This document shows, one piece after another, positions 13,474-51,076 of a DNA stretch of 64,000 nt (the first letter of the stretch is position 1; each line of letters starts with the position of its first letter). The translations under genes and the position numbers were made by a program. Under the pieces are notes generated by a model that searched no databases, was not told where the DNA came from, and saw only the letters and a program-made list of their open reading frames with translations. The DNA is taken from contig NZ_LR215048.1 in assembly GCF_900660745.1 (NCBI RefSeq), positions 682,001 to 746,000 of the forward strand. Direction: 5' to 3'. Source of the DNA: Haploplasma axanthum. Lineage in GTDB: Bacteria > Bacillota_I > Bacilli_A > Acholeplasmatales > Acholeplasmataceae.

Positions 13474-14374
13474 TTTAATTATTGGAATTGATGGCGGAGG
13501 AACAAAAACCTTAGCTGTTCTTTGGGATAAAAAAGGTAATGAAGTAAAAAGAGTAACAAAAGGGTTTGCTAATTTTAGTGTTGATGCTATTGAAACAATG
13601 AAGAACATTGAAGAAGCGATAAATGAACTATATGAAAAAGAACATAATTATACTATCGTAATTGGGGCGGCAGGAGACTATTCAAATGATGGGAAAAACA
13701 TTTTTATTGAATATTTAAGTAATAAATATAAATCTAAAGTTGTATTAGAATCGGATGGTTATTTAGCTTTAAATTCAATTTCAAGACTAGAAAATGAAAA
13801 TGTTTTAATTGTTGTTGGTGGAACTGGAAGTATTATATATGCGAATGATAAAGAAAGAGTTTTTAGAGTTGGTGGATTTGGACATATTATTGGCGATGAA
13901 GGATCGGCATATCATTTGGTAATTGAAGCTATTAGATATTTAATCAATGATTATGAAAAAAATGCTGAATTAAGTACATTTTCTAAAGAGTTTATGAATT
14001 TACTTCAAATTGAAGATATACAAGATATTAAATCTTTTGTATATGGACATAGTAAGGATTACACTGCGGGTTTTTCTAAACTGATTAGTAAAATGGCATT
14101 GAATGGCAATAAAAAAGCAATTGATTTATTAGAAAATGAAGGTAAATTATTAGCAGAACAGGTTTATAGTGCGTATAAAAAAATGGGTAATGAGAGAATT
14201 AAAATAGCGTTAAGAGGTGGTTTTCTTAAAAATGCACCATATGTAAAAGAAAAATTTATTAAAGAACTAAAAGAATTAAGAATTAATTACTTGATTGATA
14301 CGAAAGAAATTGAACCAGTATATGGTGCATATAATATTGCAATTAAAATTAATAATATTGGAAAGGAAAACTAA
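13466..14374 (+). CDS. murK: BadF/BcrA-type sugar kinase, probable MurNAc/GlcNAc kinase
   Basis: A 302-residue ASKHA-fold kinase. The phosphate-binding motif GIDGGGTKT lies at residues 7-15, a second glycine-rich motif VVGGTGS at about 117, and VGGFGHIIGDEGSA at about 136 is typical of the GlcNAc kinase/MurK group. Because uptake here is by ABC transporters rather than a PTS, free MurNAc must be phosphorylated before MurQ can act; this gene, placed directly before murQ, fits that step. GlcNAc is a likely second substrate. A plain GlcNAc kinase cannot be excluded by sequence reading alone. Confidence 0.75.
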   Translation: MNDLIIGIDGGGTKTLAVLWDKKGNEVKRVTKGFANFSVDAIETMKNIEEAINELYEKEHNYTIVIGAAGDYSNDGKNIFIEYLSNKYKSKVVLESDGYLALNSISRLENENVLIVVGGTGSIIYANDKERVFRVGGFGHIIGDEGSAYHLVIEAIRYLINDYEKNAELSTFSKEFMNLLQIEDIQDIKSFVYGHSKDYTAGFSKLISKMALNGNKKAIDLLENEGKLLAEQVYSAYKKMGNERIKIALRGGFLKNAPYVKEKFIKELKELRINYLIDTKEIEPVYGAYNIAIKINNIGKEN

Positions 14375-34427: not shown

Positions 34428-34454
34428 TTGATTTTAAAAGAAATGAGGTTTTTT

Positions 34455-35423
34455 ATGAAGAATTACATATTGAAAAGACTTGGACTAATGGTTATAACTT
34501 TCTTTATAATTATTTTTATGATTTTTGTATTTATTAAGTTAATGCCTAATTTTTATCAAGTTGGTTTAGGACAAGATCCTGAAGTATATCAAAAATGGTT
34601 GGAAAATCAAGGTTATAACAAACCAATTGTCACACAATTTTTTATGTGGATTGGAAATATAGTTAGAGACGGAGATTTTGGTATATCATTCCATAAGAAT
34701 AACGTACCAGTTGCTACATATGTATTAACTAGATTACCAAGAACGATAAGAATAAATATTTTCCCATTTTTAATATCTGTTCCGATTGGAATTACATTTG
34801 GAATAATAGCGGCACTTAAAAAGAATAAATTGACAGATCATGCTATTTCTATAGGGGTTGTATTCTTTATTTCTGTACCTATGTTTGTTGTTGCTGTATT
34901 ATTACAATATTTTTTAGTTTATGAATGGAAAATTTTACCAGAAGCAAAGGTTGATAATTTAGCTCCTTTATTTTCTAAACAGGCAATATTAACAAGGATA
35001 TTACCAATTTTTGTATTATCTTTAGGTACAATTGCAGGATGGACTAGATCACTAAGAGCAGAATTAACTGAAACATTAACTTCGGAATTTATGTTACTTG
35101 CACGTGCAAAAGGTTTAACTAAAGGTCAAGCTACAGTTAGACATGCACTTAGAAATGCATTTGTTCCATTCGCACCTGCAATAATTGGTGGATTTATTTC
35201 ATTATTAGGAGGTTCGTTAATTATTGAACGTACATTTGGTATTACCGGTATAGGTGGAGCTTTCTTAGAAGCATTAGAACAGCCGAAAGGTATTCCTGAT
35301 TATCCGATGTTTATGATGCTTAATATGTTTTATGTATCAATTGGATTGCTTGCTGCAATAATTGGTGATTTGTCTTATGGAATAATTGATCCAAGAATTA
35401 GAATTGGTGGTGGAAAATCATGA
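34455..35423 (+). CDS. oppB: Oligopeptide ABC transporter permease OppB
   Basis: About 322 residues with six membrane helices and the typical OppB start MKNYILKRLGLMVITFF. The EAA-type loop LLARAKGLTKGQATVRHALR is at about 222. The ATG at 34455 follows ATGAGG; the longer frame from 34428 runs through the terminator arm and is not used. It overlaps oppC by four bases. Partner of OppC in the peptide channel. Confidence 0.93.
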   Translation: MKNYILKRLGLMVITFFIIIFMIFVFIKLMPNFYQVGLGQDPEVYQKWLENQGYNKPIVTQFFMWIGNIVRDGDFGISFHKNNVPVATYVLTRLPRTIRINIFPFLISVPIGITFGIIAALKKNKLTDHAISIGVVFFISVPMFVVAVLLQYFLVYEWKILPEAKVDNLAPLFSKQAILTRILPIFVLSLGTIAGWTRSLRAELTETLTSEFMLLARAKGLTKGQATVRHALRNAFVPFAPAIIGGFISLLGGSLIIERTFGITGIGGAFLEALEQPKGIPDYPMFMMLNMFYVSIGLLAAIIGDLSYGIIDPRIRIGGGKS

Positions 35424-36730
35424 TTGAAAGACATTTAAATGAAGATGATTTTAAATTTATTAATCAAGAAATAGTTATAAAAGATGAAGCGTTAAAATCT
35501 AAACCAATAGGATACTATCAAGATGCATGGTTACGTTTTAAGAAAAATAAAACATCAGTTGTTGCGATGTATATAATTTTGATTATGCTAGCCTTAACAT
35601 TAGTTGGACCATATTTTAGACAATATACATTACCAAAAGAAAATGGTACTATGGCACTTAGATTTGATAAATTACCAGAAAAAGTTCCAGGTTTAGAATC
35701 GTTAGGTATTTTTGATGGTAGTAAAGTTGTTTCTGGGATGTCAAGAGAGTATTATGAATCGTTACCTGAAGGAATTGTTAAAAGAGTAGTTCATGAAGTT
35801 GATCCTAATAACCCAGGGGCAATGGTTGTTGAAGTAGATTATTATAGATATCATAGATATTTTAATATTTATGGTAAACAACTAGTAAATGGCGAAAGAG
35901 GACTTGTAACAAGTACATTGTCAAAAGATGATTATGAAAAAGCTCTTGAGAGAAATGCTGTAGTTAATTTAGTTTCAGTTAATAGAAATGATTATACTGT
36001 ACAACTTGATATCTATAGATTTTCATTTGATAAAGATGTAGATGATGTATATTTTTGGTTCGGTACAACTGAAAATGGAGATGACTTATTTACTCAACTT
36101 TGGACAGGTTCTAGAATTTCAATTTTGCTTGGACTCTTAGTAACTGTTATTAATATTACAATAGGGGTTATTTTAGGTTCAATTGTTGGATATTTTGGTT
36201 CAACGTTAGATATAATATTCGAACGTATAGTTGATGTACTATCAAATATACCATTTATGATTGTTATTACGTTATTATTGTTAAGATTCGGTAGTGGAAT
36301 AGGTGTAATTGTCTTTGCCTTTGTATTCACCGGGTGGATTGGCGCATATTCATCAACACGTATTCAAGTATATAGATATAAGAATAGAGAATATGTCTTA
36401 GCTGCTCGTTCATATGGTTCAAGTGACAGACAAATAATTACAAAACATATTCTTCCAAATGCTATTGGGACACTGATTACATCATTTTCATTAGCATTAC
36501 CAAGTTTCATATTTGCTGAATCGACATATTCATATTTAGGAATCATTAATTATCCTGGTATTCAAAGTGTAGGTAGATTATTATCAGATGGGCAAGCTGT
36601 TATGCATACGCATTTCCATGCTCTTCTATATCCTGCTTTATACATAGGTTTATTAATGCTATCATTTAATATGTTTAGTAATGGATTACGTGATGCATTT
36701 AATCCATCATTGAGAGGAATTGATGAATAA
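35420..36730 (+). CDS. oppC: Oligopeptide ABC transporter permease OppC with a large extracellular insert
   Basis: A 436-residue protein against about 300 for the family. After the first helix (about residues 47-67) there is an insert of about 145 hydrophilic residues (70-215) before the conserved FGTTENGDDLFTQLWTGSRI and the remaining five helices. The EAA loop is YVLAARSYGSSDRQIITKHI at about 325. The insert should lie outside the cell, where it could contact the enlarged OppA. It overlaps oppB by four bases and oppD by one. Confidence 0.92.
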   Translation: MIERHLNEDDFKFINQEIVIKDEALKSKPIGYYQDAWLRFKKNKTSVVAMYIILIMLALTLVGPYFRQYTLPKENGTMALRFDKLPEKVPGLESLGIFDGSKVVSGMSREYYESLPEGIVKRVVHEVDPNNPGAMVVEVDYYRYHRYFNIYGKQLVNGERGLVTSTLSKDDYEKALERNAVVNLVSVNRNDYTVQLDIYRFSFDKDVDDVYFWFGTTENGDDLFTQLWTGSRISILLGLLVTVINITIGVILGSIVGYFGSTLDIIFERIVDVLSNIPFMIVITLLLLRFGSGIGVIVFAFVFTGWIGAYSSTRIQVYRYKNREYVLAARSYGSSDRQIITKHILPNAIGTLITSFSLALPSFIFAESTYSYLGIINYPGIQSVGRLLSDGQAVMHTHFHALLYPALYIGLLMLSFNMFSNGLRDAFNPSLRGIDE

Positions 36731-37791
36731 TGGAAAAAGTATTAGAAGTTAAAGACTTAAAAATATCATTTAAAACACAAAACGGTATTTTAAAAGCAGT
36801 TAGAAATATTAACTTTGATTTATATAAAGGTGAAACTTTAGCAATTGTTGGTGAATCAGGTTCAGGTAAAAGTGTTACATCTAGAGCAATAATGGGACTT
36901 TTAGCTGGGAATGCAATCCATGAAGGTGGTTCTATCTTTTTTGAAAATCAAGATTTAATGTTAATACCAGAAGAACATTTTCATAGAATTCGTGGAAGTA
37001 GAATTTCAATGATTTTTCAAGATCCAATGTCTAGTTTAAATCCGATTTCACGTGTTGGTAATCAAATTATGGAAGCATTAGTTTTAAAATTAAAAATGCC
37101 AAAAGTAAAAGCTAAACAAAGAGCGATAGAATTAATGACTGAAGTAGGAATACCAGAACCAGAAAAAAGATTCTATCAATATCCTTTCCAGTTTTCTGGA
37201 GGTATGAGACAAAGAATTGTAATAGCGATTGCTCTGGCAAATGATGCTGATATATTAATTTGTGATGAGCCAACTACTGCTTTAGATGTTACGATTCAAG
37301 CACAAATATTAGAACTTATTGAAAAAATTAAAAAAGAAAGAAATCTTTCTGTGATTTTTATTACACATGATTTAGGCGTTGTTGCAAATGTTGCTGATCG
37401 TGTAGCTGTTATGTATGCAGGTAAGGTTGTTGAGTATGGTAAAGTTGATGAAATCTTCTATAATCCAAAACATCCTTATACATGGGCATTACTTTCTTCT
37501 ATGCCTAGTGTTGATACTGATGCTGAAAAACTTGAAGCTATTCCTGGTACACCACCTAATATGGTTGAATCATCAACAAATATTTTAAAAGGTGATTTGT
37601 TTGCTGCTAGAAATAAATATGCAATGAAAATCGATTTAGAATCTGAACCACCTTTCTTTAAGGTTTCAGATACACATTATGCTGCTACTTGGTTACTTCA
37701 TCCTGATGCTCCAAAAGTTGAAATGCCTGCAGCTGTTAAGAAAATAATTGAAAAGCATGAACAAAGGGGGGCATCAAATGAAAAACACTAG
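36730..37791 (+). CDS. oppD: Oligopeptide ABC transporter ATPase OppD
   Basis: A 353-residue ATPase. Walker A GESGSGKS is at 41-48, the Q-loop [11 protein letters not shown] near 95, the signature FSGGMRQR near 157, and Walker [13 protein letters not shown] near 178. The C-terminal segment with [12 protein letters not shown] is the usual oligopeptide-transporter tail, here extended by about 60 residues. Normal length, in contrast to OppF. It overlaps the start region of oppF by 14 bases. Confidence 0.93.
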
Positions 37792-39844
37792 TGTTGACTA
37801 TTCGAAAAAAGTATTGGAAGTTAAAAATTTAAGACAATATTTTAAAGTAGGTAGTGGAGGAAAAAAAATAACTGTTAAAGCTGTTGATGGTGTAAGTTTT
37901 GATGTGTATAAGAGAGAAGTTTTTGGGTTGGTTGGTGAGTCTGGTTGTGGTAAAACTACAACTGGAAGAACGATAATAAAATTATATAATCCAACTGATG
38001 GAACTGTAGTTTACAATAATAATGTTGTTGGTGCAGGCTATGAAGGATTCTTATATGACATTAGAAAACTACGTAAAGAAGCTAGATTTGAGATTTTGAC
38101 AAATAAACCACTAGACTACAAACTTTATCTTTTGAATAAAGAGTATAAAGAAAAAATTAATGAAATTAAGAAACAAAAAGAAAATTTTAAAAATGAATTT
38201 AAAGAACAGATTCAACTTATTAAAAAACCAATTACAGATAATAAGGAAGAACTTAGAGATACAAAAGTCAAATATAAACTGAATATGTCTGAATTAGAAC
38301 ATCAATATCAACTTTCTGTAGACAAAATATATAGTGAAAGTGTTTCACGTATTATTGAAAATAGAAATGATAATGTAAGTTTAATAAACAAAAGAGCTAA
38401 AGATAAAACAAGATTTATTTTGTCATCAAAAATTGAAAAATATGAAAAAGATGAACAAGTAAGAATTATCGAACAAACTCGTGATAGCGAAATCTTATAT
38501 GTCGAAGACAAAATGAAAAAAGAGTTAGCTAATAAATTGAATATTTCTAATCTTGATGAGATTGATTTAAAAACAATTAAAAAGACTATTGTTGTTGAAG
38601 AAAAAACTAGACTGAAGCAAGAAGTTTTAGAATTTAAAGAAAAATTCAATGAAGAAAAAACTGTTATAACTAAAGAATTTGAATTAGCAATAGAAAAAAT
38701 TCAATCTGTTTCAATTAATAAAGATGAAATAGATAGCAAGATTAATAGTTTGACACAAGAATCTAAAGAAAAAATTATAGATTTTGATAATCAAATTAAA
38801 GACTTAGATAATGAGTTAAAAAATCAAGTTTTAAAAACTAAAGAAGATGCTAAAAATAATCCTGATGCTTATGTTGAAAATACAGCGAAAATAGATGAGA
38901 TAAAGAGTAGATTATTAGTTAATATTAATGAAAAGAAAAAATTAATTCAAGAAGCTAAACGTCAAAATAGTTTCCGCGAAAGTGAAGAAGATAAGAATAA
39001 GAGGATTGAATTAATAAATTCAGAAAAAGATAGATATTTGGCAGAAAAAATAGTTATTTCTGAAATTGAAGATGATAAGCTTAGAAAGACTAGATCTCAA
39101 GAAGCTAAAAAGAATCATCAAGACAAACTTAATGAAATAAATAAATTAAAACCAAGTCATGTAAATTTCTTATCAACAATGCAAATGATATTTCAAGATC
39201 CAATTTCATCACTGAATCCACGTATGGTTGTTGGTGATATTATATCTGAAGGATTACGTATAAAAGGTGTAACTGATAAAAAAGAAATCCAAAAACGTGT
39301 TTTTGAAATGCTAAATTTAGTTGGATTAAGTAAAGAACATGCTAGTAGATATCCACATGAGTTTAGTGGTGGACAAAGACAAAGAATTGGTATTGCACGT
39401 GCGCTAATAGTAAATCCTGATTTTATTATTGCTGATGAACCTATAAGTGCTCTTGATGTTTCTATTCAAGCTCAAGTTATTAATCTTTTAAACGAGTTAA
39501 AAGAGAAATTAGGATTAACAATTTTATTCGTTGCCCACGATTTATCAGTTGTTAAATATTTTAGTGATAGAATTGCAGTAATGTATTTTGGTAAGATAGT
39601 GGAACTTGCTTCTTCTGAAGAGTTGTTTGCTAATCCACTTCACCCGTATACTAAATCTTTATTGTCTGCAATCCCACATCCAGACCCTGAATTAGAAAAA
39701 ACACGTAAGAGAATTATATATGATTTAAGTGTTCATGATTATAGAACACAAAAACCAACACTACGTGAAATTAAACCTGGTCATTTTATATCAGCAAATG
39801 ATGCGGAATATAAGAAGTATTTAAAAGAATTAGGAGGCAAATAA
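37778..39844 (+). CDS. oppF: Oligopeptide ABC transporter ATPase OppF with a giant coiled-coil insert
   Basis: About 688 residues. Walker A GESGCGKT is at 53-60, but the Q-loop [12 protein letters not shown] comes only at about 470; in OppD that gap is about 56 residues, so roughly 360 residues are inserted inside the nucleotide-binding domain. The insert (about 110-455) is highly charged, Lys/Glu-rich and predicted as coiled coil. The signature FSGGQRQR and Walker [13 protein letters not shown] follow normally. Enlarged OppF proteins are also known from Mycoplasma. The ATG at 37778 after AAGGGGGG is preferred to the earlier frame start. Confidence 0.92.
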
Positions 39845-39845
39845 A

Positions 39846-40469
39846 ATGAAAAAATTAATTACTATTACAATTATTTTATTTCTAATCTTAATCGTTGCAG
39901 TACAGCCAAAACCAAAACCACAAAAGGAATATACCGTTGTTTTTTATACAAATGGTGGTAGCACAATATCAACATTAACTGTTCCATCGAACTCTAAAAT
40001 CGATGAGCCATTAAAACCTACACGTACTTCATCAGAGTTTTCTGGTTGGTATACGACAAGTACATTTGATGAAGGAACTAGGTTTAATTTTAATGTTAAT
40101 ACTGTAAAACAAAGTATTACTTTATATGCCAAATGGGATGTAGATGTGTTCAAAGTTGAATATGATTTTGCTGGTGGAGAGTTACCAAATGAGGAAGCAA
40201 GAAAAAGCTATCCAACAGAATTTTCTTTTGATAGTTCTATTGTTTACTTTAAACCTAGTGATTCAAGTACTCATCCAATACACGAATCGTATGGAAGATT
40301 TACTGGATGGAGAGAAATACCACAATCAGAATATATTAAATTAAGTTCAGAAGAAAAAGAAAAATATCCATTTATTGAATTATTACGTCCTAAATCTGAT
40401 TTGAAAACATTATATCCTGATCTTATTATTAAGTTATATGCTTACTATCGTTTTTTTCCAGTAGAATAG
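39846..40469 (+). CDS. Small exported protein with InlB-B/Flg_new repeats
   Basis: A 207-residue protein with an N-terminal hydrophobic export or anchor segment and no lipobox. It contains a clear Listeria-Bacteroides (Flg_new) repeat (YTVVFYTNGG to FSGWYTTS to ITLYAKWDV, residues 28-98) and a second, diverged one (VEYDFAGGEL to FTGWREI to LYAYYRF). It begins two bases after the oppF stop behind AGGAGG, so it is the last opp operon gene; a role in peptide uptake is only suggested by position. The same repeat type is amplified in the MACPF protein downstream of the IS. Confidence 0.75.
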   Translation: MKKLITITIILFLILIVAVQPKPKPQKEYTVVFYTNGGSTISTLTVPSNSKIDEPLKPTRTSSEFSGWYTTSTFDEGTRFNFNVNTVKQSITLYAKWDVDVFKVEYDFAGGELPNEEARKSYPTEFSFDSSIVYFKPSDSSTHPIHESYGRFTGWREIPQSEYIKLSSEEKEKYPFIELLRPKSDLKTLYPDLIIKLYAYYRFFPVE

Positions 40470-40528: not shown

Positions 40529-40550
40529 GGCTCTTAGTAATATCGTGTGG
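40529..40550 (+). repeat. IS left terminal inverted repeat
   Basis: Begins GGCTCTT, the usual ISL3-family terminus, and ends GTGTGG. Confidence 0.88.
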
Positions 40551-40565
40551 TTTTATTGAAAACAC

Positions 40566-40583
40566 CTATGTAATTAGGTGTGG
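40566..40583 (+). repeat. IS subterminal repeat, left copy 1
   Basis: CTATGTAATTAGGTGTGG, one of four 18-bp copies with consensus CTATGTAATATAGTGTGG; likely transposase-binding sites. Confidence 0.65.
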
Positions 40584-40592
40584 CTAAGTAGC

Positions 40593-40610
40593 CTATGTAA
40601 TATAATGTGG
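40593..40610 (+). repeat. IS subterminal repeat, left copy 2
   Basis: CTATGTAATATAATGTGG, 27 bp after copy 1. Confidence 0.65.
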
Positions 40611-40618
40611 TATGTAAT

Positions 40619-40656
40619 AAAGCGGAAGAATCTAAACCTGATTTCTTCCGCTTTTT
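40619..40656 (+). terminator. Terminator inside the IS left end
   Basis: AAAGCGGAAGAA and TTCTTCCGCTTT form a 12-bp stem followed on the + strand by more T. It would stop transcription entering the IS from the opp operon; it may also end transposase mRNA on the other strand, though the tail there is poor. Confidence 0.75.
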
Positions 40657-40675
40657 CTATCCAATCTATTTTAAT

Positions 40676-41986
40676 TTATTCGGGTATTTTAAGGGCTACA
40701 TCTTTATTAATAGAATAAATGATTCTAGCTCTTAATCTCTTAAAACTTTTAATCCCATTACTAGTCTTAATAATAGTCTTTATTCTAGAATTAGTACCTT
40801 CAATTGGTCCATTAGATAATCTTCTATTAGAATCGGATTTAATAAAGGAATTAATAATCTCATTCTTCCAATTAGAAAGTAATTTACCAAAAGATCTAAT
40901 ATCTTCTAACCTGTGATTACGATATTTAGTAATTAAATCAGATAGTAATTCTTTAGCATTATCAAAATTAGAGTTTCTATTAAACTCACGATATTCTTCC
41001 TTGATTTTATAAACTTCAGTTAAATCATCATCAATGGATAAAAGAAAATCTTTAATAGAAGATTTATTAAGACTAATTCTAAACTTAGGAATAGAAATAT
41101 AACCATTATAGATATTATCGTATTCTTTAGTAAAGAAATAATGAAACTTCTTTAACATATAATATTTATCATTCTTATAAGTTTTAAACTCAATATTACC
41201 AGCATATTTATTCATTACTTTAATACGATGCTTATTAACGATATCATTAATATGTTTAATAACATGAAAAGAATCAATAGCTATTAAAGCTTTAGGCATA
41301 ACTTTAGATATAACGTCTTTATAAGGCTTCCACATATCAATAATAACTACTTTAACACTATCTAATTCAGTATGTTTAAGACTAGATAGATATTCTAATA
41401 GATATGATTTATGACGAGTTTTTAAAACATCAATTATTTTTTTTGTTTCAAAATCTAAGAATAGACAAGCATAAGGATGTTTAGTCCTTTTTGAAACATG
41501 AAATTCATCGATACATAAAAACTTAGGTAATATATTTCTATTTGGATCAACATAATCATCAAAAATATCAATAACAGTTTTAGTAGAAACATTAAAGATA
41601 GTAGAAGCACTAGTAAATGTATTAGAAGGATTCTTTAAGTGTTCTAAAATAGATAATTTAGTATAATGACTAATTCTATCTTTATTAATAGTAAAAGGGT
41701 TAGGTTCAAAGAAAGTTTTATTACAAAACTTACAAATGAACCTCCTATGTCTAAAAATAATGTTAACAGGATTACTATTAGAAATACTATGAGTGATAGT
41801 TTTAGTTTTATAACCATGTATTTTAGAATCTACAGAGTTACATACTGGACAATTGATCTTTTTGAGTGACAGAGTTAAATGAACATTGGTTATTGAATTT
41901 GAATTGGTAACATCTAGAATATCAAATTGAAAATCAAAAGAATCATTATGTTTTAAATTTAGAAATTTTATGATATCATCATACAT
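40676..41986 (-). CDS. ISL3-family transposase
   Basis: A 436-residue transposase that looks intact. Two CxxC pairs (CPVCNS at about 36 and CKFCNK at about 80) form the N-terminal zinc ribbon, a helix-turn-helix follows, and the DDE core shows FLCIDEFH (about 150), VVIIDMWKPY (about 207) and GPIEGTNSRIK (about 393), the three acidic residues of the ISL3 (DDE_Tnp_ISL3) domain. An AAGGAGG site precedes the ATG. Intact length and a perfect target duplication suggest a recent, possibly active copy. Confidence 0.93.
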   Translation of the reverse strand: MYDDIIKFLNLKHNDSFDFQFDILDVTNSNSITNVHLTLSLKKINCPVCNSVDSKIHGYKTKTITHSISNSNPVNIIFRHRRFICKFCNKTFFEPNPFTINKDRISHYTKLSILEHLKNPSNTFTSASTIFNVSTKTVIDIFDDYVDPNRNILPKFLCIDEFHVSKRTKHPYACLFLDFETKKIIDVLKTRHKSYLLEYLSSLKHTELDSVKVVIIDMWKPYKDVISKVMPKALIAIDSFHVIKHINDIVNKHRIKVMNKYAGNIEFKTYKNDKYYMLKKFHYFFTKEYDNIYNGYISIPKFRISLNKSSIKDFLLSIDDDLTEVYKIKEEYREFNRNSNFDNAKELLSDLITKYRNHRLEDIRSFGKLLSNWKNEIINSFIKSDSNRRLSNGPIEGTNSRIKTIIKTSNGIKSFKRLRARIIYSINKDVALKIPE

Positions 41987-41990
41987 GAAG

Positions 41991-42040
41991 GACCTCCTTT
42001 GTTAGATTTGGATAGTAACAATATCATAACATAAGAGGTC
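41991..42040 (-). promoter_or_regulatory. Inverted repeat covering the transposase ribosome site
   Basis: On the minus strand GACCTCTT pairs with AAGGAGGTC across a 33-base loop, burying the Shine-Dalgarno AGGAGG. Such structures limit translation of transposase from read-through mRNA in other IS elements; here it is inferred. Confidence 0.4.
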
Positions 42041-42063
42041 TTTTTTTAAATGATTAAAAGAAC

Positions 42064-42081
42064 CTATGTAAAAAAGTGTGG
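42064..42081 (+). repeat. IS subterminal repeat, right copy 1
   Basis: CTATGTAAAAAAGTGTGG, in direct orientation. Confidence 0.6.
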
Positions 42082-42084
42082 TCA

Positions 42085-42102
42085 CCACACTATATTACAT
42101 AG
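42085..42102 (-). repeat. IS subterminal repeat, right copy 2
   Basis: On the minus strand CTATGTAATATAGTGTGG, facing right copy 1 so that GTGTGG-TCA-CCACAC forms a palindrome. Confidence 0.65.
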
Positions 42103-42113
42103 CTATACGATGA

Positions 42114-42135
42114 CCACACGATATTACTAATAACT
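42114..42135 (-). repeat. IS right terminal inverted repeat
   Basis: Reads AGTTATTAGTAATATCGTGTGG on the minus strand; mismatches to the left end are at positions 1, 3 and 5. Confidence 0.88.
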
Positions 42136-42152: not shown

Positions 42153-42179
42153 AGGTCCAAAATTTTGGACCTTTTTCTT
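42153..42179 (+). terminator. Terminator displaced from the opp operon by the IS
   Basis: AGGTCCAAAATTTTGGACCT is a perfect palindrome followed by TTTTCTTTTTTTT. Without the IS it would lie about 67 bases after the 207-residue gene. Confidence 0.85.
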
Positions 42180-42396
42180 TTTTTTATAAAAGTTTATTTT
42201 TTAAAATCTATATTGTGATATTAGAACAAGTTAAATAACCACATGTACTCTTATGTTCTCCAATTAAGTGACACATGTGCTCTACAAAAAAGTAAAATAA
42301 TACAATAATATAAGTATAGTACTATAAAAAAGGAAAGGAGATATTATATTTGTAGGGTAGTACAGTTAGTATATTTAATAGTGAAAGGAAAAAACT
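42180..42396 (+). other. Leader region of the MACPF gene
   Basis: No gene was seen. It holds a 12-bp direct repeat CACATGTACTCT (42240-42251) and CACATGTGCTCT (42272-42283), one mismatch apart and spaced 32 bp, then an AT-rich stretch with TATAGTACTATA. An AAAGGAG at about 42334 has no good reading frame behind it. The promoter could not be placed confidently. Confidence 0.4.
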
Positions 42397-45300
42397 ATGC
42401 TAAAAAAAATAAGTTATATTGTTTTTTTAATTACATCACTTTTTGTATTATATGCATGTAAAAGTAATGATGTAGTAAATGATGATTATGAATCTAAAAA
42501 TGGGGAATTAATTAAAACGGTAGATTCAGCAGGTAATAAAGTTGAAATTGGAGCATATGCTACACATAATGCAAATGATGTTGATGCTTCATTCTTAGGG
42601 TATGGAATTAATCTTGCAAATTATTCACAAGTAAGTGCTAGAAATACAAATATTACGTTTCCAGTATTTGCAAGGGATAAAATAAGTCAGCAACAAGTTA
42701 TTAAAGTTTATGAAACAGTAACTGACATTAAAAATATTGAGGGAAAAACAATGGAAGAATATATCCAAAGTTTACAAGTTAAAGCGAAAGTTAAATTAGG
42801 TGCTCCATTTGGAAAATTAGATATTGCTGCATCATTTAGTACACAAACTACAAATTCTAAAGAACAAATGTACAAGACAATTGATATACAAGAACAAAGT
42901 TATTATTTAGGATTACAAGTTAATCCTAATGATTATGCTGATATGCTTTCTGAAAGCTTTGTAAATGATGCTAAAAATCTTCCGATAGAACAGTTTATTA
43001 GAAGATATGGAAGCCATGTTTTAACAAGTGTAACTATGGGTGGAGCAATGAAACTTGATTATACTATTGCAAGCTTTGATGATACAAATGTTAATAATGT
43101 AAGTGTTGCTGTTGACGCATCAGTTCGTGGATGGATCAAAACAAACGTTGATATTGATGTAGATTATAGAGAAAGTATAAAGAATAAAAATGTTAATGTA
43201 TCAGTTAACTTAAGTGTCATTGGTGGTGAGACTGTTGGTATATATTCTGAACAAGATATATCTAAAAAATATGCTGAATGGCAAAAGTCTATTAAGGATA
43301 AACCATCATTAATGGGTATTAAAGATGATAATTCTTTATATCCAATATGGGATATTGTTGCAGGTATTAACTCTAATGGAGATAGTGATAATGCAATATA
43401 TCAAAAGCGTGCATCAGAAATTCAAGCATACTTCCTAAAAGTTGGACAAGACAATTATCAAAGTATATTAAGTCAGTACTCAGAAAAAAAGATAGTTTTT
43501 CCAAGTGGTATAAAGAAAGTAACAATTGAACCAGAAGGAAATACTGATATAGCAAAAATACAAGATATAACTTATAAAACTGGAGTATTAAATTCAAATA
43601 CTAGATATAAAGTAAATCTTGAATATGAAAACGAAGTTACAGGGCACCATTCAATTACGTATATTCCAATAAAAGAATCTGAAAATGTTAAAGTAAGCTC
43701 AAATGGAATTCTAGAAGCAACACTACCTGATAATATAGATAGTGCAAATGTTGAAGTACTTATTAATGCTGGAGGTATATCAAGGACTGTAAAACTATAT
43801 ATAGAAAAAGTGTTTAGAGTTGATTATGTTTCAAATGGTGGCAATGACTTAAATAGTATTGATGGCATACAAAAGTATTCTACAATATATGAGCCTATAG
43901 AACCATATAAAGAAAATTATCAGTTTGTTGGATGGTATACAGATCAAGCATTAACACAAAGATATGACTTTGATGAGAAAATTGTATCTGATTTGGTTCT
44001 ATATGCAAAATGGAATAGACTTTTAACAGTTACATACGTAATTGAAGGGGATAGAACAGACATTAAAAATGGATACATAAGTGGAGAAACAAAAGTTATT
44101 GATGATTTTATTCCTAGAAAAGTTGGTTATTACTTTAAAGGTTGGTATATGGAAAGAGAATTAAAAACACAATATACATTTGATGAAACTATAAGTAAAG
44201 ATCTTGTACTATATGCTAAATGGGAAAAACTATTAACAGTTACATTCTATGATGGAGAAACATTAATTGAGTCAAGAGATGGATTTAGAAAAGGAATTGA
44301 CTTAGTAGTCGATGCTCCAGTAGTATCAAAAGATGAATATATATTTGAAGGATGGTACACAGATTTAAACTTAATTACTAAGTATGAGTTTAATAGTGCG
44401 TTAACAAATGACACTAATATATATGCAAAATGGAAGAAAAAACCTACTTATATAGTTACATTTGATTTGGGGATTGAAGGAAAAAATCGTCTTGCAGAAA
44501 ATCTTAAAGATGGAGATAAAATCTATATAAATGAATACGTTACGAATGATGATCTAAACCGTAACGGATACAAGTTTATCGGATGGTATTTTATTGCTAA
44601 TGGTGAGGAAAGAAAATACACAGGAAATGAATTTGTCGTAAATTCTGATTTTACATTTACAGCAAAATGGTTGCCAAAACAAATATATACTCTAACATTC
44701 AAGTTTATGACTGATAAAAATGATTTTGTAGATACTGGTAATGAGGAATCATCTAAATTTGATCTTAACCAACATTCTGTTTTAGCGTCACCTAAGAAAC
44801 ATGGATATATATTTGATGGATGGTATACAATGAATGAAGATGGCATAGAAAGAAAATTAATCGGCACAGTATTTGAAGTGAATGGTAATATGACCTTTAC
44901 TGCTAAATGGATCATGGGACAAGTTACGATTACATATGAGGGTTTAAAAGAGGGTGATTCTAATACTAATCCAGGAAGTGTTTCAATCATTAATCCATTA
45001 GAACTTAAAAAGGCTGAAAGAAAAGGATATACATTTGATGGATGGTATGAAGAAATTACCTTAGAAAATTATCAATTAGTTGAAGAAATCAATCTTAATG
45101 ATAGAGATCCAGAAATAGAAGAGATTATTTTACAAGCTAGATGGACAAAAACTAAATATACTATCACATATCATAATGTTGATTCAAACAGTGAAAATAA
45201 TCCAACCACATTCTATTTTGATGATAAACCTAAATCTTTACATGATGCAACAAGACCAGGATATACATTTGTTGGTTGGTATAGAAACGTTGATTCAACT

Positions 45301-46215
45301 GTTAAAGTAACTGAAATAAAAGGCTTTAGTAGTAATTTAGTATTATATGCAAAATGGGAAAAGATTACATATACGATTACTTACAAAAACATTGATACTA
45401 ATAATCCAAATAATCCGAATGAATATCAAATAACTAGTGATATTGATTTATATGAACCAACGAAACAAGGAAATACGTTTGTTGGTTGGTACTTAAGTAA
45501 AAATGGAAATGATAAAATTATAAAAATTAAGAATATGACAGGAAATATTGATTTATATGCAAAATGGGAAGTGAAAAAATATAATATTTCATATTTTAAT
45601 GTTGAAAATGCAGTTAATGATAATGCTGATACATTAGAACATGGAAGTTTATTAAAGCTTAAATCACCTATAAAAGAACACTATAATTTCATTGGTTGGT
45701 ATCTAGATAGTGAATTAACAATAAACTTTGAACCAAACATTCACTATGATAAAGATATTAACTTATATGCAAAATGGGAAGTGAAAAAATATAATATTTC
45801 ATATTTTAATGTTGAAGATGCAGTTAATGATAATGCTGATACACTAGAACATGGAAGTTTATTAAAGCTTAAATCACCTATAAAAGAACACTATAATTTC
45901 ATTGGTTGGTATCTAGATAGTGAATTAACAATAAACTTTGAACCAAACATTTACTATGATAAAGATATTAACTTATATGCAAAATGGAGTATAAAGGTAT
46001 ATACAATTACATATACATATAATGTTGATGTAGATGCTAGTAATCCAAATAAAGAATCCGCAAACGCAAACTCACAAGTTAATTTATTCGGTCCGATGAT
46101 GTTTGGACCTGAATATAAGTTTTTAGGTTGGTATTTAAATGGTGTACAAGTTTCAAGATTTGTTATTATTTCAGATGTTACTATAGAAGGAAGATTTGAA
46201 AAAATATTTTGGTAG
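42397..46215 (+). CDS. MACPF (perforin-like) lipoprotein with eleven InlB-B repeats
   Basis: A 1272-residue lipoprotein (VLYAC, Cys21). Residues about 45-340 resemble a MACPF/CDC-type domain: the signature is RRYGSHVLTSVTMGG around Tyr204-Gly205-Ser206-His207, preceded by helical clusters and followed by amphipathic strands (DASVRGWIKTNVDIDVDY). A short Ig-like linker follows. Residues about 475-1272 carry eleven Flg_new repeats, each with GWY and AKW-type cores. MACPF proteins oligomerise into membrane pores, so a surface toxin or adhesin acting on other cells is plausible; activity is not shown by sequence alone. Repeats 9 and 10 are nearly identical at DNA level. Confidence 0.8.
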   Translation: MLKKISYIVFLITSLFVLYACKSNDVVNDDYESKNGELIKTVDSAGNKVEIGAYATHNANDVDASFLGYGINLANYSQVSARNTNITFPVFARDKISQQQVIKVYETVTDIKNIEGKTMEEYIQSLQVKAKVKLGAPFGKLDIAASFSTQTTNSKEQMYKTIDIQEQSYYLGLQVNPNDYADMLSESFVNDAKNLPIEQFIRRYGSHVLTSVTMGGAMKLDYTIASFDDTNVNNVSVAVDASVRGWIKTNVDIDVDYRESIKNKNVNVSVNLSVIGGETVGIYSEQDISKKYAEWQKSIKDKPSLMGIKDDNSLYPIWDIVAGINSNGDSDNAIYQKRASEIQAYFLKVGQDNYQSILSQYSEKKIVFPSGIKKVTIEPEGNTDIAKIQDITYKTGVLNSNTRYKVNLEYENEVTGHHSITYIPIKESENVKVSSNGILEATLPDNIDSANVEVLINAGGISRTVKLYIEKVFRVDYVSNGGNDLNSIDGIQKYSTIYEPIEPYKENYQFVGWYTDQALTQRYDFDEKIVSDLVLYAKWNRLLTVTYVIEGDRTDIKNGYISGETKVIDDFIPRKVGYYFKGWYMERELKTQYTFDETISKDLVLYAKWEKLLTVTFYDGETLIESRDGFRKGIDLVVDAPVVSKDEYIFEGWYTDLNLITKYEFNSALTNDTNIYAKWKKKPTYIVTFDLGIEGKNRLAENLKDGDKIYINEYVTNDDLNRNGYKFIGWYFIANGEERKYTGNEFVVNSDFTFTAKWLPKQIYTLTFKFMTDKNDFVDTGNEESSKFDLNQHSVLASPKKHGYIFDGWYTMNEDGIERKLIGTVFEVNGNMTFTAKWIMGQVTITYEGLKEGDSNTNPGSVSIINPLELKKAERKGYTFDGWYEEITLENYQLVEEINLNDRDPEIEEIILQARWTKTKYTITYHNVDSNSENNPTTFYFDDKPKSLHDATRPGYTFVGWYRNVDSTVKVTEIKGFSSNLVLYAKWEKITYTITYKNIDTNNPNNPNEYQITSDIDLYEPTKQGNTFVGWYLSKNGNDKIIKIKNMTGNIDLYAKWEVKKYNISYFNVENAVNDNADTLEHGSLLKLKSPIKEHYNFIGWYLDSELTINFEPNIHYDKDINLYAKWEVKKYNISYFNVEDAVNDNADTLEHGSLLKLKSPIKEHYNFIGWYLDSELTINFEPNIYYDKDINLYAKWSIKVYTITYTYNVDVDASNPNKESANANSQVNLFGPMMFGPEYKFLGWYLNGVQVSRFVIISDVTIEGRFEKIFW
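45571..45780 (+). repeat. 210-bp tandem repeat, copy 1
   Basis: Codes one 70-residue InlB-B repeat of the MACPF protein, starting VKKYNISYFNVENAV. Confidence 0.88.
45781..45990 (+). repeat. 210-bp tandem repeat, copy 2
   Basis: Differs from copy 1 at three internal bases (changing Asn to Asp and His to Tyr, one silent) and at the final codon; recent duplication. Confidence 0.88.
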
Positions 46216-46251: not shown

Positions 46252-46289
46252 TGTGACATCGATATGAATCAATGTCACATTTTATTTTA
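46252..46289 (+). terminator. Intrinsic terminator after the MACPF gene
   Basis: TGTGACAT and ATGTCACA stem with a 12-base loop, then TTTTATTTTA. Confidence 0.8.
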
Positions 46290-46371: not shown

Positions 46372-47139
46372 ATGTCAACATTAAAGATTAATAACCTTCA
46401 AGTTGAAATTGAAGGTAAGAAGATATTAAAAGGAGTTAATCTTGTAGTTAACTCAGGGGAAGTACATGCAATAATGGGCCCAAACGGAACTGGTAAATCA
46501 ACACTTGCTAGTGCATTAATGGGACATCCAAAGTATGAAGTAACTGAAGGAACTGCTATTTTAGATGATGAAAATCTTTTAGAAATGGAAGTTGATGAAA
46601 GAGCTAGATCTGGACTTTTTTTAGCTATGCAGTATCCTGCAGAAGTACCTGGTGTTACAAATAGTGATTTTATGCGTCAAGCATTAAAGGCAGTTTCAGG
46701 TAAAGATGTATCATTAATTGATTTTATTTTTAAGTATGAAAAAAATGCCGAAGATTTAAAAATGCGTAAAGATCTTCCGCATAGATATTTAAATGAAGGA
46801 TTTAGTGGTGGTGAGCGAAAAAGAAATGAGATCTTACAATTAAAAACATTAAAACCTAAAATTGCAATCTTAGATGAAATAGATTCAGGGTTAGACGTTG
46901 ATGCATTAAAAATTGTAGGAAATAATGTTAATGATATGATTAGTCCAGAGTTTGGATGTATATTAATTACTCACTATCAACGTATTCTAGATTATATCGA
47001 ACCTACACATGTTCATATCATGATTGATGGGAAAATTGTTTTAACTGGCGGCAAAGAATTAATTACTAAGATTGATACTAATGGTTATGAATGGGTAAAA
47101 GAAGAATTAGGAATTGATTTTGAAGCAGGTAATGAATAA
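46372..47139 (+). CDS. sufC: Fe-S cluster assembly ATPase SufC
   Basis: A 255-residue ABC-type ATPase. Walker A GPNGTGKS is at about 37, the SufC signature FSGGERKRNEILQ at about 144, and Walker B IAILDEIDSGLDVDAL at about 164. It energises the SufBCD scaffold on which Fe-S clusters are built, in the cytoplasm. First gene of sufCDSUB, the usual Firmicutes order, with one-base overlap to sufD. Confidence 0.95.
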   Translation: MSTLKINNLQVEIEGKKILKGVNLVVNSGEVHAIMGPNGTGKSTLASALMGHPKYEVTEGTAILDDENLLEMEVDERARSGLFLAMQYPAEVPGVTNSDFMRQALKAVSGKDVSLIDFIFKYEKNAEDLKMRKDLPHRYLNEGFSGGERKRNEILQLKTLKPKIAILDEIDSGLDVDALKIVGNNVNDMISPEFGCILITHYQRILDYIEPTHVHIMIDGKIVLTGGKELITKIDTNGYEWVKEELGIDFEAGNE

Positions 47140-48017
47140 TGGAAAGTATTGTTATTAAGAATCATCAAATAATTGAAAATACTACTTCAAAAAATATTAA
47201 ACTTAATGACCGAAAATTAACAATTCCAGAAAAAACTATTTATGAAAAACCACTTAAAATAACTTTGCTAGAAGATAATCATGAAGAGTTAGAAATTAAT
47301 ATTGGTAGTAATAGTGATGTTAAAATAATTTTAGAAGTTGCAGATAAATCAAAAGGAAATAGCGATTATAGAATTAAACTAATTACAAATGAGAATACAA
47401 ACTTAAAATATTTATTGATTGCTGCACTAGAAAGCAAAAATGCTATTCTAACACATGAGTTTGTTGCTGGTAAGGATAGTAACCTTGATTTACTTGCAGG
47501 TCTTGTGAGTGATGTTTTAACAGCGAAAATTGATGTTAAAGTTGCTGGCATAGGTGCAAGTGTTAAAATTAGAGCAGTTGCAGTATCAAGTGATAATAAT
47601 GATCAAAAAATAGATGTTTATATGAATCATATGGCACCAAATACATTTGGTGATATGACTAATATAGGGATTGCTAATAAAAAAGGACGAGTAATCTTAA
47701 ATGGTGTTGAAAAAATTGAAAAAGGAATGAAAAATTCTAACGTATATCAAACATTAAAAGGTGTTATTACATCAGATGATGCAGTAGTGGAAGTTAACCC
47801 AATTCTTTTAATTGATGAATATGATATTAAAGCTGGACACGCTGCAACAGTAGGTAGACTAGAAGAAGAGGCTCTTTACTACTTGCAAAGTAGAGGTCTA
47901 ACGAAAAAAGATGCAGAAAAATTAATAATTAATGGTTTTTTAAGACCAGTAATTGATGAAATAGAAGATGAAGAGTTAAAAGAAAGATTTAACGAACTTG
48001 TGAACTTAAGGATATGA
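47139..48017 (+). CDS. sufD: Fe-S cluster assembly protein SufD
   Basis: A 292-residue SufB/SufD-family beta-helix protein, shorter than the usual 420 or so; the N-terminal helical part is much reduced. The conserved C-terminal region is present: IDEYDIKAGHAATVGRLEEE, then LQSRGLTKKDAEKLIINGFL. It ends in tandem TGA stops. Partner of SufB and SufC. Confidence 0.9.
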   Translation: MESIVIKNHQIIENTTSKNIKLNDRKLTIPEKTIYEKPLKITLLEDNHEELEINIGSNSDVKIILEVADKSKGNSDYRIKLITNENTNLKYLLIAALESKNAILTHEFVAGKDSNLDLLAGLVSDVLTAKIDVKVAGIGASVKIRAVAVSSDNNDQKIDVYMNHMAPNTFGDMTNIGIANKKGRVILNGVEKIEKGMKNSNVYQTLKGVITSDDAVVEVNPILLIDEYDIKAGHAATVGRLEEEALYYLQSRGLTKKDAEKLIINGFLRPVIDEIEDEELKERFNELVNLRI

Positions 48018-48024
48018 TGAATAA

Positions 48025-49224
48025 ATGAATCAAGATATAAGAAAAAAATTCCCGTTTTATATAAAGAATAAAGATGTTAGTTACTTAGATAGTGCTGCAT
48101 CTTCTTTAAAATTGAAATCTGTTATTGAGAGTTTAAATGATTATTATGCTAATAACGGATCAAACATTCATAGAGGTGTATATAGACTTGCTTATGAAGC
48201 GACAAATCAATTTGAAGAAACTAGGGAATATGTTTCAAAATTTATAAATAGTAATCTTAATGAAGTAGTATTTACTAAAGGAACAACCGATTCGCTTAAT
48301 AAGATTGCTAGTAGTTATAGTGATTTTATATTTGAAGATGATGAAATAATCACTACTGAGTTAGAGCATCATTCATCATTTATTCCATGGCAAGTAATTG
48401 CTAAAGAAAAAAAAGCGAGATTAAAATTTTTGCCTTTGACAGAAGAAGGGAAAATAACTGTTGAAAATTTCAAAAAAGTTATTTCAAATAAAACTAAGGT
48501 AGTTGCTATTACGTATGTTTCAAATGTTTTAGGTTATGTAACACCGATTAAAGAAATAATTGAGATTGCTCATCAAAATGGAGCAATAGTGATTCTTGAC
48601 GCAGCTCAAGCAGCAAGTCATCTAAAAATTGATGTTAAAGAGTTAGATGTTGATTTTTTAGCATTTTCTTCTCATAAAATGTACGGCCCAAATGGAGTTG
48701 GTATTTTATTTGGAAAAGAAAAACTTTTAAATCAATTGAAACCTTTTGAATATGGCGGAGAAATGGCTCATTTAGTTTTTAAAGATGAATCATCATGGAA
48801 AGATATTCCTTACAAATTTGAAGCAGGAACACCTGTTATTGCTGAAGTGATTGCTTTTAAGGAATCAATTAAGTTTTTGGAAGAAATATCATTAGATAAA
48901 ATTCATGAACATGAAATGAAGTTAAGAGATTATACACTGAATAAATTGAAAGATGTTAAAGGATTAACAGTATATAATAAAACTGCTGAAACAGGCATTA
49001 TAACGTTTAATATCGAGAATGTTCATCCACATGATGCTGCAAGTATCCTTGATCAAAATAATGTTTGTGTTAGAGCAGGTCATCATTGTGCGCAGTTAGT
49101 TGCAAAATTTTTAGGTGTTACAGCAACCCTAAGAGCATCATTTGCGGTATATAATGATTATAAAGATTGTGATAATTTGGTTAATGCTATTATTGCTACA
49201 AGAGATTTTTTTGAAAGTTTTTAG
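48025..49224 (+). CDS. sufS: Cysteine desulfurase SufS
   Basis: A 399-residue group II cysteine desulfurase. The PLP lysine is Lys218 in FSSHKMYGPNG, and the catalytic Cys355 is in VRAGHHCAQ. It mobilises sulfur from cysteine and passes it to SufU, the next gene. TTELEHHSSFIPWQ at about 112 is also typical. Length and motifs are normal. Confidence 0.95.
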   Translation: MNQDIRKKFPFYIKNKDVSYLDSAASSLKLKSVIESLNDYYANNGSNIHRGVYRLAYEATNQFEETREYVSKFINSNLNEVVFTKGTTDSLNKIASSYSDFIFEDDEIITTELEHHSSFIPWQVIAKEKKARLKFLPLTEEGKITVENFKKVISNKTKVVAITYVSNVLGYVTPIKEIIEIAHQNGAIVILDAAQAASHLKIDVKELDVDFLAFSSHKMYGPNGVGILFGKEKLLNQLKPFEYGGEMAHLVFKDESSWKDIPYKFEAGTPVIAEVIAFKESIKFLEEISLDKIHEHEMKLRDYTLNKLKDVKGLTVYNKTAETGIITFNIENVHPHDAASILDQNNVCVRAGHHCAQLVAKFLGVTATLRASFAVYNDYKDCDNLVNAIIATRDFFESF

Positions 49225-49233
49225 GTGATTAGA

Positions 49234-49665
49234 ATGGATATAAACAATTTATACAGACAAGTAATAATGGATCATTATAAAAATCCACAAAATAAAGGCT
49301 TAGTTAATGATAGTAATTATTTAACAGTACATATGAATAATCCATCTTGTGGTGATGATATTATGATTCAATTAAAACTAGATGGAGATTTAGTTTCTGA
49401 TGTTAGACATTTAGGGACAGGATGTTCAATCTGTTGTTCATCAGCAAGTGTTATGACAGTAACATTAAAAGGAAAAACAAAAGAAGAAGCATTAAAAACA
49501 ATTAACGAGTTTTATGAACTTATTAAAGGACAAGAATATAATCATAATATTCTAACAGGAGATGCCGTTGTTTATAGTGGAGTCTCACAGTTTCCAGCAA
49601 GAGTTAAATGTGCAACATTAGCATGGAAAGCAGTCGAAAAAGGACTTACTACGAAGGAGGACTAA
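49234..49665 (+). CDS. sufU: Sulfur-transfer protein SufU
   Basis: About 143 residues. Zinc-ligand cysteines appear in [20 protein letters not shown] and [11 protein letters not shown] as in SufU rather than IscU scaffolds. It accepts sulfur from SufS. The ATG at 49234 is preferred over GTG 49225 because AGGTGA precedes it. The central motif has an extra Cys (CSICC). Confidence 0.93.
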
Positions 49666-49666
49666 A

Positions 49667-51076
49667 ATGGACGATAACAAGAAAAAGATTGATGATATTG
49701 TTGGTGAATATCAGTTTGGTTTTATAACTGATTCTAAGCCGATTTTAGATACAGGAAAAGGTATTAATGAAGATATAGTTAAGCAAATTAGTGAAATTAA
49801 AAAGGAACCAAAATGGATGTTAGATTTCAGACTTGAAAGTTATAAAAAGTTTGTTGAAATAAAAAATCCAGATTGGGGTCCAGATTTATCATTTATTAAT
49901 TTTGATGAATTTACATATTACATTAAACCAAGTGATAAAGCAGAACATAACTGGGATGATGTTCCAGAAAAAATAAAAGAAACTTTTGAAAGATTAGGAA
50001 TTCCAGAAGCAGAAAGAAATTATTTGTCAGGAGTTTCAACACAATTTGAGTCCGAAGTTGTATACCATAGTACTCAAAAAGAGTTAGAAGATTTAGGAGT
50101 TATTTATGTAGATACAGATACTGCATTAAGAGAATATCCTGAGTTATTTAAAAAATATTTTTCAACAGTTGTCAAAAATGATGATAATAAGTATGCTGCA
50201 TTAAATAGTGCAGTTTGGAGTGGAGGATCATTTATATATGTTCCTAAAGGAGTTCATGTTCCAAAACCGCTACAATCATACTTTAGAATTAATTCTGATC
50301 AAATGGGACAATTTGAAAGAACATTAATTGTTGTTGATGAAGGGGCATATGTAAATTATGTTGAAGGATGTACTGCACCAGTTTACTCAAAAAATAGTTT
50401 GCATGCAGCGATTGTTGAAATAATTGTTAAAAAAGATGCAACATGTAGATATACAACAATTCAAAATTGGAGTGACAACGTTATTAACTTAGTTACAAAA
50501 CGTGCTCATGTTTATGAAAATGGCCATATGGAATGGATTGATGGTAATATTGGATCAAATGTTAATATGAAATATCCATCATGCATTCTATTAGAAGAAA
50601 GAGCTAAGGGAACAACTATTAGTATTGCTTTTGCTGGAAAAGGTCAATGGCAAGATGCTGGAGCAAGAATGATTCATTTGGCACCAAATACAACTTCAAG
50701 CATTGTTTCAAAATCAATTAGTCGTGGTGGCGGAGCAGTGAATTATCGTGGTAAGGTTCATTTTGGAAAAAATGCTAAAGGAGCAAGAGCAAATATAGAA
50801 TGTGACACAATCATTTTAGATGGAATATCAACAAGTGATACAGTTCCAATTAATGTTGTTAAAAACAGTGATGTATTTTTACAACATGAAGCAACTGTCT
50901 CAAAAATATCAGAAGAACAATTATTTTATTTAATGAGTAGAGGATTAACTGAAGAAGAAGCTACAGAAATGATTGTCATGGGCTTTATTGAACCATTTGC
51001 AAAAGAATTACCAATGGAATATGCAATTGAACTGAATCAATTGATTAAACTTGAAATGGAAGGTTCTATTGGATAA
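49667..51076 (+). CDS. sufB: Fe-S cluster assembly protein SufB
   Basis: A 469-residue SufB of normal length. Recognisable stretches are [20 protein letters not shown] at about 184, [20 protein letters not shown] at about 226, and the C-terminal [20 protein letters not shown]. It forms the scaffold complex with SufC and SufD. Preceded by AAGGAGG and followed by a strong terminator. Confidence 0.95.

Follow-up and report, generated by a model that had tools for sequence, protein, structure and literature searches.

We analysed a window of 64,000 nucleotides from Haploplasma axanthum (contig NZ_LR215048.1, positions 682,001 to 746,000 of the forward strand), in which one open reading frame (ORF) encodes a predicted lipoprotein that joins a MACPF domain to a long series of InlB-B repeats. 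The original prediction, made from the letters alone, had described a perforin-like lipoprotein with eleven such repeats and proposed that it acts as a surface pore-former. The predicted ORF bounds, 42397-46215 on the plus strand (1272 residues), proved exact, and the product is likely to be a surface pore-former as judged from its sequence. The gene and its parts are as follows (TMH1 and TMH2 are the putative transmembrane hairpin segments).

42383..42389, plus strand: GAAAGGA, ribosome-binding-site-like, just 5' of the ATG
42397..46215, plus strand: ORF of the stalked MACPF lipoprotein, ATG start, 1272 residues
42397..42456, plus strand: predicted type II (lipoprotein) signal peptide, residues 1-20, by pattern test, with Lgt and LspA in the genome
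42457..42546, plus strand: Cys21, predicted to be lipidated, and a linker of ~30 residues (residues 21-50)
42547..43515, plus strand: MACPF region, residues 51-373, from the Pfam core (151-308), the family alignment and PDB profile matches
42724..42858, plus strand: tested TMH1 segment (residues 110-154), in which LQVKAKVKL (126-134) shows the strongest beta-alternation
43006..43044, plus strand: MACPF signature YGSHVLTSVTMGG, residues 204-216, by motif test
43075..43191, plus strand: tested TMH2 segment (residues 227-265), with IKTNVDIDV (247-255) as its best-scoring stretch
43222..43281, plus strand: GGXnW motif GGETVGIYSEQDISKKYAEW, residues 276-295, by motif test
43516..43812, plus strand: region of ~99 residues between MACPF and repeats (residues 374-472), immunoglobulin-like by reading, no Pfam match
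43813..46182, plus strand: eleven InlB-B (PF09479) repeats, residues 473-1262, by Pfam and our own repeat model
45545..45987, plus strand: repeats 9 and 10, a tandem in-frame 210-base duplication, 97% identical by sequence comparison
46183..46215, plus strand: tail of 10 residues plus the stop codon, in which no tip domain was detected

The MACPF assignment stands by profile: PF01823 scores 52.1 bits (cut-off 21.5, E 1.3e-13) over residues 151-308, and the only Pfam families above cut-off in the protein are MACPF, List_Bact_rpt and a related divergent B-repeat model. Two protein searches returned 28 other database proteins in which repeats follow a MACPF domain, which together with the window protein form a set of 29 stalked proteins; these searches admitted only lengths of 0.55-1.75x the query, thereby enriching stalked proteins, and one of them scored the best 7993 candidates. 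A phmmer search with the first 398 residues matches the solved MACPF proteins 2qp2, 6fbm and 8b6u/8b6v. The family profile recovers GNIP1Aa (6fbm, 2.5e-18), Plu-MACPF (2qp2, 5.8e-16) and Mpf2Ba1 (8b6u, 3e-10) from the PDB, followed by perforin-1 (2.1e-6) and complement C6 (2.9e-4). The MACPF signature (Y/F-G-T/S-H-X7-G-G) and the GGXnW motif, as defined in PMC5483515 (papers are cited here by accession, each for the excerpt drawn upon), are both intact: the signature reads YGSHVLTSVTMGG in the window protein, the conserved tryptophan lies in GGETVGIYSEQDISKKYAEW, and each feature is kept in 29/29 family proteins. The spacing from signature to tryptophan is 91 residues, compared with 93 in Mpf2Ba1 by hand count on the alignment; pores of Mpf2Ba1 have been solved (PMC10344926).

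Both hairpin segments expected of a pore-former could be located, their positions being set by the spacing reported in PMC2954219 and not by structure. In the window protein they beat shuffled sequences for beta-alternation (TMH1 was reached in 0/300 shuffles, TMH2 has p 0.013, and a control segment p 0.21). Among the family proteins, several of which are near copies, 24/29 pass this test for TMH1, 7/29 for TMH2 and 0/29 for the control. The picture for two amphipathic hairpins is thus divided: both segments stand out in the window protein itself, but the TMH2 alternation is weak over the family as a whole.

The N terminus supports membrane anchoring. The lipobox FVLYA-C21 fits the lipoprotein pattern PS51257, in keeping with the predicted lipoprotein signal, and Cys21 is the sole cysteine within residues 21-1272. 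Lgt and LspA are both encoded in the genome (a single contig of 1,883,099 bases). Past residue 40 a strongly hydrophobic segment is absent, the top 19-residue mean being 0.93. A lipidated cysteine N-terminal to the MACPF domain, a trait of the Bacteroidota BSAPs discussed below, is therefore present as a pattern. Acholeplasmataceae, the family to which H. axanthum belongs, are wall-less; a search for the penicillin-binding transpeptidase PF00905 returned no match in the genome and was positive in 10/14 control genomes.

The eleven predicted repeats are borne out by PF09479 (List_Bact_rpt, 321.6 bits, E 5.3e-98, 11 stretches), and a hidden Markov model (HMM) that we built from the repeats themselves, which shortens repeats or misses some, also detects 11 copies (residues 490-1262). 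The repeats lie C-terminal of the MACPF domain in 29/29 stalked proteins, the window protein included, and number from 1 to 13 as detected. In 7/15 other lipoprotein-like repeat frames of this genome, taken from the stretches that we fetched, the first repeat detected starts at most 50 residues from the lipid cysteine; in the window protein the first HMM-detected repeat is 469 residues away. Since the repeats are C-terminal and begin this far from the anchor, the domain order places the perforin next to the membrane, with the repeats forming the distal, free part. The earlier picture of a perforin joined to a long stalk is thus right in that both domains are joined, but the stalk does not lift the perforin: a stalk that raises it off the membrane is ruled out by the MACPF-then-repeats order in 29/29 proteins. 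Since repeats 9 and 10 are an in-frame 210-base duplication with 97% identity, stalk length can probably change by recombination. InlB-B frames are abundant in the genome, with at least 18 frame sizes among the 50 matches listed, which reach 3199 and 6245 residues; three similar lipoprotein-like frames of 249-251 residues stand in a row near 1.28 Mb (L050).

The architecture was thought unusual, and it is, though not unique, as the 28 further proteins show. A strict lipobox is present in 24/29 stalked proteins with the window protein (23/28 without it); four others (P0004, P0018, P0020 and P0028) narrowly miss it by eye, and P0005 has none in its listed start. Five of the 28 relatives have a named source (A. 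palmae, three 'Clostridia bacterium' and one Borkfalkiaceae), and a genome scan added at least seven further loci, all Clostridia-type. Among the matches listed, herbivores figure in 4/7 clostridial titles (goat colon, caecum of roe deer and of water deer, reindeer), and one of the seven loci comes from a Christensenella metagenome-assembled genome (L016). In this last protein an additional InlB-B repeat separates the lipid anchor from the MACPF domain, an arrangement seen in no other protein examined; the clostridial locus L019 ends before any repeat. None of 35 pattern matches in a scan of viral contigs is a relative, which leaves viral carriage of the family without a candidate.

Some relatives bear a further domain past the stalk. 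Lectin_C and DUF6273 each occur in 1/21 full-length relatives scanned, and an unnamed tip domain (~120 residues, a beta-sandwich by reading, with a motif like DGYQ..YD ... GAxG..DDW..K) is found in 8/29 stalked proteins, one of them weak, and in L014. The same domain is C-terminal in secreted Bacilli MACPF proteins, ten of which supplied the sequences for its profile. It occupies C-termini at L001, L003, L004, L007, L009, L012, L013, L092-L095, L097 and L098, and likewise in P0006, P0015, P0027, L008 and L014; Pfam gives it no name in L001, P0015, P0023 and P0027.

MACPF domains are uncommon near H. axanthum (10/160 genomes of the order and 19/395 of the class, its own genome counted). We examined 24/27 other Bacilli MACPF matches, leaving out those in G208, G222 and G238 (one 1047-residue frame), and repeats are absent from 24/24 of these ORFs. 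One of them is a second MACPF protein of the window genome (L001 964-2427, minus strand; genome match 161220-161810; 487 residues), which has a hydrophobic signal-like start and the unnamed C-terminal domain, and is without a strict lipobox and without repeats; immediately upstream is a gene that by eye resembles an ABC permease. Six others (L006, L008, L091, L096, L099 and L101) combine a strict lipobox with a lack of repeats, so lipid-anchored MACPF proteins seem to be spread more widely than Bacteroidota even without a stalk.

The window protein and its A. palmae counterpart, from another genus of the Acholeplasmataceae, are 55.7% identical in the MACPF region and 37.2% in the repeat part. 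We scored loci with a profile of six stalked MACPF domains that excludes this acholeplasma pair (P0003, named Clostridia, and five without source name). It gives 211 bits for the window protein, 210 for A. palmae and 191-566 for the seven clostridial loci, versus 14-76 bits for 22 other Bacilli MACPFs and less than the 12-bit print limit for two more; the second MACPF of the genome itself (L001) scores 61 bits. The stalked proteins cluster together in a tree of 48 rows (100/98), and the acholeplasma pair is placed inside this cluster (96/87) because the clostridial row L018 branches outside. Among the 25 other stalked rows, nine have a named source, all Clostridia-type, and 16 are labelled Clostridia without a source name. 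The tree omits near copies (P0007-P0012, P0017), the cut L019, duplicates (L020 = P0020, L002 = P0001, L005 = P0002) and short or weak rows (L010, L011, L103). Descent from other Bacilli MACPFs is not supported by either the profile scores or the tree. As the window MACPF groups with the stalked family and not with other Bacilli or with the second MACPF of its own genome, lateral transfer is likely; its direction rests on the single branch that puts L018 outside. The gene probably would have passed from a Clostridia-like source into an ancestor of both Acholeplasmataceae genera that hold it, or alternatively would have been acquired by one genus and then handed to the other.

The surroundings of the gene are conserved in A. 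palmae, where it also lies between opp transporter and suf genes:

34428..39844, plus strand: opp ABC transporter genes, left flank of the conserved synteny, by ORF comparison
40530..42130, minus strand: ISL3-family element (ORF 40676-41986), approximate ends, from Pfam and an identical second genome copy
42153..42172, no strand assigned: terminator-like hairpin upstream, by terminator scan
46252..46279, no strand assigned: terminator-like hairpin downstream; the scan lists the minus strand only, and a T-rich plus-strand tail is seen by reading
46372..51076, plus strand: suf genes (sufC to sufB), right flank of the conserved synteny, by ORF comparison

The neighbouring insertion sequence (IS) is real, with an ISL3 transposase at 40676-41986, but incidental: the A. 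palmae gene has the same place without an IS, and an identical copy of the element lies elsewhere in the genome (100%, at 1,158,346). This copy and several partial ones (95-97%) indicate a recently active element, and its position here appears to be a recent arrival. The A. palmae synteny without an IS also rules out an IS-borne origin of the MACPF gene. That the gene stands alone in its transcript fits the sequence: hairpins lie on both sides, the gene upstream is on the minus strand, and sufC is preceded by a promoter-like match. Terminator-like sites exceed expectation in the region (6 found, 1.2 expected); promoter-like matches are at chance level (45 found, 54.8 expected).

Identity to the A. 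palmae counterparts ranges over 44-91% for the permeases, ATPases and suf proteins that flank the gene in the window, and is ~33% for the substrate-binding protein. An all-against-all comparison of flanking ORFs, covering seven clostridial loci (two of them shortened), A. palmae and the window, found opp and suf common to the window and A. palmae; the available clostridial flanks contain no opp genes. At L018, IscU/NifU-like and cysteine-desulfurase-like genes lie close downstream of the MACPF gene (12681-14355, minus strand) and match the window suf genes at 25-32%; these being common genes, the arrangement reflects either chance or an old shared neighbourhood. Weak pairs link L018 and L020 (an HTH-regulator-like gene upstream, 39% over 62 residues), L016 and L020 (a lipoprotein-like ORF, 26%) and L017 and L019 (a transketolase-like ORF, 25%). 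Directly after oppF, 39846-40469 (plus strand) encodes a 207-residue protein with a signal-like start, one InlB-B repeat and a weak above-cut-off Tox-MPTase4 match (29.0 bits, cut-off 25). OppF itself (37748-39844, plus strand) has a long charged insertion in the ATPase (698 residues versus 474 in A. palmae), and among the NCBIfam models the mycoplasma OppF one (NF043078) fits it best, with a score short of the cut-off.

Comparison with known systems points to the BSAPs (Bacteroidales secreted antimicrobial proteins) of Bacteroidota. BSAPs such as BSAP-1 share the order of the window protein, namely an N-terminal lipid, a linker (disordered in BSAPs), the MACPF domain and a C-terminal part. 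In BSAP-1 the C-terminal domain alone confers receptor binding, and the C-terminal domains of BSAPs form groups that seem to track receptor type (PMC12853789 for all three points). The window protein differs in its organism, which is not a member of Bacteroidota, in the absence of a PF00905 match from its genome, and in its C-terminal part of eleven InlB-B repeats; the known BSAP C-terminal domains (PF18885, PF20779, PF20785) and DUF5648 are not among its Pfam matches at E up to 1. The BSAP signal for lipoprotein export to the outer-membrane surface pertains to cells that have an outer membrane. The solved MACPFs closest to the window protein are Plu-MACPF, GNIP1Aa and Mpf2Ba1, in which the GGXnW tryptophan aligns and, for Mpf2Ba1, the spacing is nearly equal, but these end in a beta-prism; they are not known to have a lipid anchor, and they target insects. 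Other Bacilli MACPFs, including L001, carry the domain in the same taxonomic class, yet fall outside the stalked tree group, and many end in a C-terminal domain absent from the window protein. InlB and other internalins share the PF09479 B repeats; Pfam detects no leucine-rich repeat or internalin domain in the window protein. Its nearest counterpart is the A. palmae InlB B-repeat-containing protein (P0002), with the same architecture, eight repeats detected and the same gene order, which differs by a 39-residue tail, the missing IS and an adjacent extra HtrA-like lipoprotein gene (by reading).

As the stalk, with or without a tip, holds the position of the BSAP C-terminal domain, we read the product as a BSAP-like, stalked and surface-held pore-forming weapon against neighbouring cells, a reading to which we give about an even chance. 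The protein would be exported and lipidated at Cys21 by Lgt and LspA, leaving the MACPF domain within linker length of the cell's own membrane and ~800 repeat residues pointing outward. The repeats, being in the receptor-binding position of BSAPs, would find and hold the surface of another cell. Contact, or else release by shedding or proteolysis, would let the MACPF domains assemble into oligomers and send TMH1 and TMH2 into the target membrane, while the producer may be spared because it lacks the receptor. A walled Gram-positive target is unlikely since its membrane is covered; candidates would be mollicutes, protists and host cells, whose membrane is exposed, or cells that have an outer membrane.

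Several observations weigh against this reading. The solved BSAP-type protein 3kk7 is not among 25 PDB sequences matched at E up to 10, for which reason the window protein most likely works like a BSAP without being one. The immunity gene for which a survey had been suggested does not appear: across the seven clostridial loci, A. palmae and the window, the flanks hold no conserved immunity or partner gene, although some CDC-like toxin operons are also without one (PMC11169675). By profile search, the window and A. palmae proteins are without the tip domain of some relatives. The TMH2 pattern is weak in most relatives, with 7/29 passing, and some MACPF proteins are likely non-lytic (PMC5483515). 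The lipid anchor at the MACPF end would have to be squared with insertion into another cell. Finally, MACPF matches are absent from sister species of the same genus (G015, G016) and from one that shares its genus with A. palmae (G010), so that vertical descent needs several losses.

The same nearest solved relatives make a different target plausible. As 6fbm, 2qp2 and Mpf2Ba1 belong to the insecticidal group of bacterial MACPFs, the protein could be a cytolysin whose targets are eukaryotic, be they host tissue, insects or protists; its repeats would then act as an adhesive stalk for docking to the cell under attack, possibly to obtain nutrients. InlB-B repeats are known from host-adhesion proteins, and the herbivores named in four of the seven clostridial titles among the matches listed have guts in which protists and host cells abound. 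Yet the insecticidal-group proteins end in a beta-prism, for which the window protein has no Pfam match, and are not known to carry a lipid anchor; the Pfam scan found no eukaryote-specific binding domain, and the order of lipid, MACPF and C-terminal domain is that of antibacterial BSAPs. We consider a eukaryotic target possible, if rather unlikely.

A BSAP-like weapon must also be weighed against a non-lytic surface adhesin, in which the MACPF domain would serve as scaffold or oligomerisation unit and the repeats would bind. The neuronal, likely non-lytic MACPF proteins are without most of TMH1 and the conserved tryptophan (PMC5483515), whereas here TMH1 is the better-patterned segment and the tryptophan is kept in 29/29 proteins. 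We accordingly doubt this explanation and rate it as unlikely, even though MACPF proteins that probably do not lyse exist. It draws its possibility from the repeats being a general surface fitting of this genome (at least 18 frames of different size among the matches listed, and 15 frames that our HMM finds in the fetched stretches and that start like lipoproteins) and from the weak TMH2 alternation of most relatives. A role in uptake or export, by way of pores or arcs that the protein forms in the membrane of its producer and tied to the adjacent oligopeptide transporter, is very improbable: the gene adjoins opp in two genera and a transport role was once proposed for Bth-MACPF (PMC2954219), but a terminator-like hairpin and, here, the IS stand between gene and opp, the available flanks of the seven clostridial loci (two shortened) have no opp, and an open pore of MACPF size would be lethal in the sole membrane of a wall-less cell.

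In the open-access literature we found no paper, by title, on a MACPF-InlB-B protein or on an acholeplasma MACPF, and no paper on the fold of the InlB B-repeat. The parts are each known; their combination, its spread over Clostridia and Acholeplasmataceae and the wall-less host appear to be undescribed there. Lipid-anchored MACPF killers shape gut strain composition in Bacteroidota (PMC12853789), the only group in which the literature examined places them, whereas the proteins described here belong to Clostridia, several from herbivore guts, and Acholeplasmataceae. We tentatively suggest that stalked perforins could be an undescribed class of weapon in Gram-positive bacteria and mollicutes, with a lipid anchor, a MACPF domain at membrane level, an extendable InlB-B stalk and an exchangeable tip that catches a passing cell. 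Acholeplasmas might have obtained one from gut Clostridia, dropped the tip and turned it on cells with exposed membranes such as rival mollicutes. If this is true, wall-less bacteria would have their first known perforin-type weapon. Should the protein perforate, it would allow one to test directly whether the exposed membranes of wall-less bacteria are a route by which they fight, and how a bacterium keeps a perforin on its sole membrane without lysis.

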